Below are positions 39,135 through 40,334 of a stretch of DNA of 53,392 nucleotides, piece after piece. How positions within the stretch are numbered: position 1 is the first letter of the stretch; every line of letters begins with the position of its first letter. A model generated the notes under the pieces. The model did not search any database. It saw only the letters and a list, made by a program, of their open reading frames with translations, and was not told the DNA's origin. A program made the position numbers and the translations under genes. Source of the DNA: Lentisphaerota bacterium (GTDB taxonomy: Bacteria; Verrucomicrobiota; Lentisphaeria; Victivallales; Victivallaceae); the NCBI GenBank assembly GCA_015061745.1, contig SUWB01000018.1, forward strand, positions 1 through 53,392, read 5' to 3'.

Positions 39135-39992
39135 TTATTTGTAATAAGCATCAAGATATGTGCCGCGTTTGTTGAAAAGGAAACTTTTGTTCATCCTTGA
39201 AGTATGGCCGTCCATATGGCAGAGCATTTGAACTGAGCCGCCGGTGTGCTGGGAGTTATAATATCCCCAGTCGGAGGTGTTGAAATGGGTGGATAAATTC
39301 GCCTCAGTCATATAGACTTTGACCGAAGGATTGTTGATTCTGGTCAGTTTTCCGATACGCCAGGGGCCGTTTTTGACCTTATTGGTCTTGGCAACATACC
39401 AGGGGATACAGTAGGACGTTTGCTGTTTTACTGAGGCAAGGTGTACGGGATTGGCAGGGCAGAAAAAGACTTTGGGGCGGGGAAATTTATTCTGGTAAAA
39501 ATTTTCTTTGACAGCTCCCAGATATCCGCCGACACGGACATACCACGCCGGGCTGGAGGCGGTGGCAAGACCCTGATATGTTTTGATTTCAGGTTCGTAT
39601 TCACCAAGAGGCAGATAGTCATTATTGTCCATACAATAGGAAAACATAGCATTCCCCTGCTGTTTCAGATTGGAAAGGCAGCTGCTCTCTTTGGCTTTGT
39701 CGCGGGCCTTTTGCAAGGCAGGCAGCAGCATCGAGGCCAAGATAGCAATAATGGCAATCACAACCAGAAGTTCAATCAGCGTGAACGCTGATTGAGTGAA
39801 GCACGGCTTCGCTGTATGAAGCATTTGCCTCCGGCAAATATGAAGCACACCGTTGGTGTATGAAGCACTTGCTTTGCAAGTATTATAAGGCATCTTTTTA
39901 TAAAATTTATTGAAATAATGCAGCGGGGAAACACATACTTGACAAGTTTTGTTTACCAACAGTCCAATCAGCGTGAAGAAAGATTTTTTCAT
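39135..39992 (-). CDS. Prepilin-like protein with 64-codon insert in its leader
   Basis: A 285-residue precursor of a type IV pilin-like (pseudopilin) protein. The mature part begins at Phe70: [20 protein letters not shown], the classical N-methylated helix, then [20 protein letters not shown] and a C-terminus with a QHTGG...MDGH motif related to the H-X9-DG domain (here eleven residues between His and Asp-Gly). The first residues ([13 protein letters not shown]) are a second, imperfect copy of the same leader/helix start. Residues 6-69 correspond to an insertion flanked by a 13-bp direct repeat. The ATG at 39992 has AAAGGAG and a strong promoter. ATGs at 39893 and 39824 are alternatives, the last giving a 13-residue leader ending SA-F. 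It heads an operon of glycan-degrading enzymes, which suggests a surface or periplasmic glycan-binding role. Confidence 0.85.
39773..39882. repeat. Array of five short hairpins inside the prepilin gene
   Basis: Read on the plus strand, a TGAAGC linker is repeated four times, each followed by a perfect or near-perfect hairpin and an A. The stems are 39803-39807/39811-39815, 39823-39829/39833-39839, 39847-39851/39855-39859 and 39867-39872/39876-39881, each with a three-base loop. The stem sequences differ but complementarity is kept. At the left end a fifth hairpin (39773-39781/39786-39794, TGAA loop) covers the codons of the prepilin cleavage site. Unit length is 20-24 bases. Not a CRISPR. Confidence 0.85.
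39965..39977 (-). repeat. 13-bp direct repeat flanking the prepilin insert (distal copy)
   Basis: CAATCAGCGTGAA at 39965-39977 is identical to 39773-39785. The offset is 192 bases (64 codons), so loss of one copy plus the insert keeps the reading frame and gives MKKSF followed directly by FTLIELLV. Confidence 0.9.
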
Positions 39993-40334
39993 TCGGTTCG
40001 ACTCCTTTGTGTTGTACAGTTAAAAGATAAAATCAAGTTGATATAACCTTTATCAATTCCAATATGAAAATAATTTTTCAGAATATCTGATCCGTTAAAT
40101 GTTCTGTTTACATAAATTCCTTTTCTGTTCCCTGATCTTTTTCAGCGGGCAAATCAGGAATTTTTTGTGTTTTTACAAGTATACCATAAAAAGTAACTGA
40201 TTTCAAGTGCATCTTAGCTCCGGAGTGTTTTTTTGCAGAGAAAAACAGAAAAAAGTCATTTGCAATATTTCCGACAGGTGCTATATTTAATTCAAATCAA
40301 TATTTATATTTTTATGCAATGTCAAGGAGTTTTT
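39993..40334. promoter_or_regulatory. Divergent promoter region, 342 bases
   Basis: Leftward, for the prepilin operon: TTGAAA (40201-40206), 17-base spacer, TATACT (40178-40183), giving a leader of about 180 bases. Rightward, for the C_GCAxxG_C_C gene: TTGCAA (40260-40265), 16-base spacer, TATATT (40282-40287), and AAGGAG before the ATG at 40335. No gene is seen in the interval, and the long prepilin leader contains no obvious riboswitch. Confidence 0.68.

Follow-up and report, generated by a model that had tools for sequence, protein, structure and literature searches.

Probable motif-targeted mobile elements in the prepilin leaders of gut Lentisphaeria

How does a prepilin gene come to carry its N-methylation motif twice, and what is the DNA that separates the two copies? 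The question is raised by the ORF at 39135-39992 on the minus strand of the window, the 53,392-nucleotide stretch of Lentisphaerota DNA analysed here. The ORF encodes a prepilin-like protein of 285 aa and includes two copies of CAATCAGCGTGAA, at 39773-39785 and 39965-39977, spaced 192 bp apart. These were found as reported in a preliminary description of the sequence. The translation also agrees with that description: both copies start the FTLI sequence, with Phe6 and Phe70 as the first residues of motif copies 1 and 2, and the 64-codon unit between them is open. A Pfam search of the 285-aa protein matched PF07963 (N_methyl) to residues 67-90, which include the second motif copy only. The hydrophobic helix comes directly after this copy, and the combination of N-methylation motif and helix is that of a type IV prepilin or pseudopilin.

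The true repeated unit in the gene is not 13 bp long, but corresponds to the 24-bp FTLIELLV motif. After 13 identical bp the two copies diverge, with differences at motif positions 13, 17, 18 and 23. The junction rule derived from other genes predicts an inserted unit at approximately 39765-39956. The features of the locus are as follows.

39135..39992, minus strand: prepilin-like gene encoding 285 aa, in which the N-methylation motif is followed by a weak match to DUF1559 (ORF and Pfam matches)
39765..39956, minus strand: predicted inserted 192-bp unit of family B, from the V8 codon of the upstream motif copy to the L7 codon of the downstream copy, ends accurate to a few bases (from junctions in other genes)
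39954..39977, minus strand: upstream motif copy, which has become FTLIGLLV (E to G) and is regarded as original to the host gene (motif comparison)
39762..39785, minus strand: downstream motif copy FTLIELLV, with a probably element-derived 5' part, TTCACGCTGATTG, and the presumed mature N-terminus (Pfam match and family-specific sites)
39773..39794, no strand assigned: 22-bp palindrome CAATCAGCG-TGAA-CGCTGATTG, which runs from the end of the element into the FTLIE codons and is characteristic of families B, C and D (sequence and folding)
39795..39881, no strand assigned: array of short hairpins with ATGAAGC spacers, resembling intergenic arrays elsewhere in the genome (sequence, folding and matches)
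40002..40008, minus strand: Shine-Dalgarno sequence AAAGGAG for the original start codon, ATG 39990-39992 (sequence)

Recurrence and distribution of the inserts

When the window insert was compared with the DNA of its own genome, at least 51 matches were obtained. At least eight of these are long (120-191 bases, E 8e-96 to 2e-31), with 40 of 74 candidates scored. The insert is thus a short palindromic repeat present in many copies, as are the Rickettsia palindromic elements. A single occurrence, which the preliminary description had named as evidence against its reading, was not what we found: the insert DNA recurs both in the genome and in its relatives.

A search of the genome for the N-methylation family gave at least 136 matches (150 of 181 candidates scored), and the surrounding stretches were examined together with the window. 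They contain at least 94 ORFs with a strict prepilin motif. The motif, intact or degraded, is repeated upstream in frame in 54 of the 94, which amounts to 72 in-frame cassettes. Because the same insert family recurs in at least eight long matches, and 54 of the 94 prepilin ORFs have cassettes at this place, 72 in total, the repeat in the window is beyond chance.

The cassettes were assigned to families by simple endings, and the copy numbers are lower bounds: 40 belong to family A (mostly 78 codons), eight to family B, which includes the window insert, 18 to families C and D, and six to family E. The cassettes and the family-A copies were found via open frames. The families are mosaics, in which, for example, the heads SKTCQICV, TTAQQNC, SAACKVRV and KRSHLCC are combined with the tails SLPSPAP, FTQSA and VKLYS. 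Among the 40 genes without a detected motif repeat, eight end in an A or C tail, and six of these eight adjoin a contig end. Eight contigs of the window's genome (G000), C5, C8, C22, C47, C52, C57, C63 and C66, start or stop inside a family-A element. Assemblies therefore probably undercount the elements.

Two further observations concern the diversity of the leaders. In several leaders that lack a motif repeat (L040, L041, L042, L066, L070, L071 and L087), a palindrome such as TTCACCTGCCTGCAGGCAGGTGAA is located directly before the motif and resembles the tail of family E. Genes that share the native leader NNFRKSIMKR were found empty (L332, G049:C85), with a chimaera of D head and B tail (L188, G013:C2) and with D plus A (L116, G000:C71), a set that suggests exchange between element modules.

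In the DNA examined, the elements are restricted to prepilin leaders and have a single orientation. The family-A consensus DNA, for which 40 of 92 candidates were scored, had at least 41 long matches, and every match listed was in a prepilin locus; 40 were found by script to be open and followed by FTLIELLV, and the remaining one, on C54, reads through by eye. All 72 inserts were then used as queries against 337 kb of prepilin stretches. They matched 90 places, 84 of which overlap open leaders, 68 lying wholly inside and 16 spilling past the motif. The other six comprise three places at contig ends and three partial matches in intergenic hairpin arrays on C37 and C26. In 20 other stretches (400 kb), chosen by eye and found to contain no prepilin motif, the 72 inserts had no match, the sole place in the sample being that of the window itself. 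The remaining three quarters or so of the genome is covered only by the matches listed in the two DNA searches (40 of 74 and 40 of 92 candidates scored). No insertion into a variety of unrelated genes was observed among the 90 places in 337 kb or in the 400 kb of motif-free stretches. Of 30 loci checked, 27 show the prepilin motif; L352, L197 and L198 do not, and in L197 and L198 the match extends to the end of the available locus.

The intergenic arrays carry ATGAAGC spacers and resemble the inner hairpins of family B. One is located in L131 (G000:C37:1-3000) at approximately 580-930 and the other in L132 (G000:C26) at approximately 1990-2056, where the inserts match in part, over 68-72 bp. 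The C37 array has tRNA-His on one side and a 120-aa ORF matching PF05635 (23S rRNA-intervening sequence protein) on the other, and the C26 array comes after tRNA-Pro.

With a family-B query, matches were obtained in at least 21 of 34 genomes of the genus, at least 78 of them in G013. Across the class, the query matched 26 of 197 genomes, from 7 of 85 genera. The named records comprise 18 loci in Lentisphaeria MAGs from the gut of sheep, yak and roe deer. The preliminary description had pointed to double-leader prepilins in Victivallis-type genomes. Such prepilins do occur in relatives, but the group can be given more narrowly as one genus of MAGs, together with ruminant-gut relatives recorded as 'Lentisphaeria bacterium'.

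Empty sites, junctions and the element-borne motif

Interrupted and uninterrupted prepilin genes were aligned, as the preliminary description had proposed, and empty orthologues were found in sister species. Orthologue pairs were drawn from 85 prepilin genes of G012 and 70 of G049, plus five of G013, which are a subset of the prepilin genes of those genomes. Among 41 reciprocal-best pairs between G012 and G049 (at least 90% identity), 15 have no element tail, 15 have a tail in one member and 11 have one in both. In five of the 15 one-tailed pairs, the contig breaks off within the filled leader. One orthologue trio consists of two empty genes, L202 (G049) and L205 (G013), and a filled one, L203 (G012), with a 147-bp insertion in DNA that is otherwise 97% identical between G012 and G049. 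Given the two empty relatives, this difference is therefore a gain.

Twelve pairs were re-measured at single-base resolution with all insert lengths allowed. The best lengths were 147 bp (four pairs), 108 bp (four), 156 bp (two) and 231 bp (one), with 192 tied with 200 in the remaining pair; since they were selected over all lengths tried, 11 of the 12 inserts are plainly multiples of three. The start codon is the same in 10 of 11 listed pairs, and for L272/L336 the sequence compared does not extend to the shared start. The inserts extend the leader: in one pair it has 6 residues when empty and 55 when filled, in another 5 and 41. L267 and L250, which are 99.6% identical, differ by a second, tandem insertion. 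In-frame insertion within ORFs that have uninterrupted orthologues is again a property of elements of the Rickettsia palindromic type. The interpretation of the window repeat as an insert in a prepilin leader is supported by its recurrence, by its motif boundaries and by the empty orthologous sites.

The origin of the downstream motif copy can be read from its synonymous sites. In family A, the right-hand copies begin TTC ACC TTG, with positions 2, 5 and 8 fixed as C, C and G in 36 of 36 copies and position 6 fixed in 35 of 36. Right-hand copies of families B, C and D begin TTC ACG CTG, with C, G and G at positions 2, 5 and 8, and all four sites agree in 16 of 16. The same sites vary in the 32 element-free genes (the 40 without a detected repeat minus the eight with element tails), and the left-hand copies vary too at most of them. 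Because these sites are fixed per family while host genes vary, the downstream copy is element-borne. Host-like variation returns in the right copy by positions 20-23, and the left copy is host-like up to approximately position 20. A target-site duplication of the kind made by MITEs was considered and set aside: left and right copies differ in a family-specific manner with no strong association within genes, and position 23 is equal in none of 28 genes with a single family-A element. As a rule, the FTLIELL codons thus come with the element, and the 13-bp repeat is not a target duplication.

The pairs place the junction near the end of the motif. Nine of the 12 are compatible with a junction inside motif positions 18-25, several of them only as part of a wide range. 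In the cleanest pair, L222/L308, the junction falls at positions 18-23 with zero mismatch. Other fitting junctions are at 21-24 (L203), 21-23 (second gene of L267), 19-23 (L313) and 24-25 (L268), and wide ranges that include position 22 were obtained for the other gene of L268, L288, L218 and L267/L250. Three of the 12 pairs fall outside 18-25: L261/L270 at 7-11, L272/L336 at 0-2 and L264/L228 at approximately -12. In L272 (G012:C75)/L336 (G049:C143) and L264 (G049:C116)/L228 (G012:C75), the emptier gene has one motif copy, which looks like the right-hand copy in the fuller gene, and these two of the three misfits could be losses by recombination between motif copies. The preliminary description had taken the 13-bp repeat as the boundary of the insert. 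The inserts are indeed bounded by the prepilin motif, but the 13-bp repeat itself is neither boundary nor target duplication, as the downstream copy is element-borne and the junctions that can be resolved mostly fall close to the final codons of FTLIELLV.

We consider it likely that the inserts are non-autonomous, site-specific mobile elements targeted to the motif, for which the prepilin leader is a safe harbour with FTLIELL rebuilt behind them. Several hairpin-rich families, with units of approximately 108-234 bp, would insert one-way near codons 7-8 of FTLIELLV, open and in frame. The 3' end of the element would be its own FTLIELL copy, by which the motif is rebuilt before VIAIIAIL and the mature pilin left unchanged, and the rebuilt motif would be a fresh target for the next insertion. 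The extra residues would lengthen the N-terminal leader, which may tolerate arbitrary open sequence, and the elements would be selfish DNA of nearly neutral effect, rapidly gained and lost. A circular or single-stranded form of the element could be inserted in trans, either by a recombinase in a single-crossover-like event or by the annealing of a single strand that bears hairpins.

The main competitor of this proposal dispenses with a dedicated element. Homologous recombination or gene conversion among the roughly 100 paralogous prepilin genes would copy leader cassettes, with the conserved motif codons as homology. Copies are seen only in paralogues that share motif DNA, and the elements are mosaics of common heads and tails, as this mechanism would give. 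Some filled genes have extra changes directly 3' of the motif (four in L203), as expected of gene conversion. In element-free pairs, too, the motif differs more than the rest of the gene, with 30/336 differences at positions 0-23 versus 127/2520 beyond position 150. These two observations make some exchange among paralogues likely. The three of the 12 junctions that do not fit likewise speak for conversion and weaken the case for mobile elements.

However, the homology on the left would be merely 24 imperfect bp. On the right, the crossover would be expected often in the next 60 bp, but the family-specific sites yield to host-like variation by positions 20-23. The flanks have changed no more than in element-free pairs: at positions 24-60, we counted 34/540 differences in one-element pairs, 35/504 in element-free pairs (14 of the 15, the other being apparently misaligned) and 33/396 where both members carry elements. 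A coarser, hand-made grouping, whose 'same' group included some different-element pairs, gave 49/720 and 53/720. Since positions 24-60 differ about equally with and without an element, insertion does not generally drag the flanks along. Conversion as the sole source of the cassettes is therefore an unlikely explanation, albeit one that deserves some weight.

Translation, selection and leader cleavage

The mobile-element interpretation takes the inserts to be translated as part of the leader; a stop codon in at least four of the matches listed from relatives counts against it. If translation instead restarted inside the insert, a short-leader prepilin would be made and the upstream part would not be translated. 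The family-B copy in the window has an ATG 13 codons before Phe70 with GGAGG ahead of it. Its G013 orthologue L201 (G013:C43:24370-24999), the best match to the mature pilin of the window (63% identity), has an in-frame TAA in its family-B insert and retains the downstream ATG 13 codons before the motif. However, all 72 cassettes are open in the frame of the gene (though they were found through open frames), an internal Met is absent from 17 of 18 cassettes of families C and D, and the GGAGG of the window ends just 3 nt ahead of the ATG. We regard restart as an improbable account of the inserts.

If the inserts were functional leader domains, for example in export regulation, peptidase recognition or mRNA stability, selection on their residues would be expected. 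Family-A copies differ from their consensus at codon positions 1, 2 and 3 in 123, 109 and 100 cases. The distinct changes are 26 synonymous and 88 nonsynonymous, where 26% and 71% are expected, and no stop was seen where approximately three distinct ones are expected; this consensus comparison ignores the tree of copies. Because the codon positions change about equally and synonymous and nonsynonymous changes are close to expectation, the residue sequence of family A thus appears near-neutral, with openness and the last motif kept. The upstream motif decays: 18 of 72 upstream copies deviate from FTLIELLV versus none of the 94 last copies, for which the finder demanded a near match.

The DNA itself is strongly folded in several element stretches. 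The tails of families A, B and C and the whole of family E fold better than all 200 shuffles (z -6.7, -5.2, -7.3 and -4.0), and the family-A head folds less strongly (z -2.5, three shuffles as good). The last hairpin of families B and C is formed between CAATCAGCG, which belongs to the element, and CGCTGATTG, which belongs to the motif. The hairpin region of family A is also less divergent, 2.5% off the consensus versus 4.7% for the part before it. This folding and conservation would suit a functional domain, but the equal change at codon positions, the coexistence of orthologues with and without insert in sister species and the occupation of the same site by different sequences make selection for such a function quite improbable.

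That an assembler misled by repeats joined the wrong leaders and genes is hardly credible: although the MAG is in 75 contigs and several of these start or stop inside an element, filled and empty orthologues agree on both sides in separate genome records, the frames remain open and the pattern recurs in 26 of 197 genomes.

The genome contains a single Peptidase_A24 match and at least 94 prepilin-like ORFs. The preliminary description placed the insert in a discarded leader; we infer that this one prepilin peptidase would remove it with the leader by cutting before Phe70. Residue -1 of the last motif in the 54 cassette genes is Pro in 35, Ala in 16, Ser in two and Tyr in one; it is diverse elsewhere and not conserved in the genus. 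Pro at this position is unusual for a prepilin peptidase substrate. Cleavage of the leader is therefore not to be taken for granted.

Relation to known mobile elements

Several candidates for a parent or carrier were considered. One family-A and one family-B sequence gave no Pfam match. Phage carriage was rejected, as none of 43 viral-contig stretches that fit the peptide patterns encodes a relative of the family-B query. For a Y1 transposase parent of the REP/RAYT or IS200/IS605 type, two Y1 fragments are all that the 91.55% complete genome yielded. IS110/IS1111 elements, with their DEDD transposase, are not co-distributed with the inserts: they occur in five of the 34 genomes, which are drafts, and in none of the element-rich G012, G013 and G049, with a partial copy in the window's genome. 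No recombinase or autonomous partner was found among these two families, Y1 and IS110.

The closest precedent is the Rickettsia palindromic elements, and in-frame palindromic selfish elements are already known as a kind. They are described as short, palindromic and non-autonomous, present in frame in protein-coding genes and translated; the genes that they enter are unrelated, and almost half of the set first described is in ORFs (PMC10969869). The Lentisphaeria copies that we examined, in contrast, are found at a single motif in a single gene family and carry the target codons with them. PARCELs are likewise translated, spreading palindromic DNA, with tandem domains of 25 residues, but their abstract describes no motif-targeted insertion (PMC2996958). 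The inserts resemble MITEs in being short, non-autonomous and hairpin-rich with lineage-specific bursts, and differ in that no target duplication is seen and no parent transposase was found among the two families tested (Y1 and IS110).

Integrative elements and phages can restore the gene that they enter, and integron cassettes are comparable. The single-crossover-like outcome, the mostly host-derived left copy, the element-derived right copy, the restored gene and the tandem cassettes are all shared with these systems. Unlike them, the Lentisphaeria inserts have as target a coding motif in approximately 100 paralogues, are approximately 108-234 bp long and carry no cargo gene.

In the literature searched, at the level of titles and abstract openings and with few subscription journals, no paper describes such prepilin-leader inserts. 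As far as that search extends, three features are new: the elements are concentrated on one motif of a single gene family, they bring with them the repair of that motif, and several element families occupy approximately 100 paralogues. A bolder proposal is that the inserts represent a new class of motif-targeted mobile DNA, whose own recombination system reads the FTLIELLV coding sequence and which carries a gene-restoring copy, with the cleaved leader as a renewable safe harbour over approximately 100 paralogues. We put this forward tentatively, as a serious possibility about which we remain rather doubtful.

What appears to be selfish DNA here uses a removable part of a protein as its landing site, and close relatives show the site both occupied and vacant. 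The inserts point to an insertion mechanism that has a coding sequence as its target. How long a prepilin leader can be, and which residues are allowed at -1, would become open to direct test, and the inserts would also account for 'double-leader' pilin sequences and for broken contigs in the genomes of gut Lentisphaeria.
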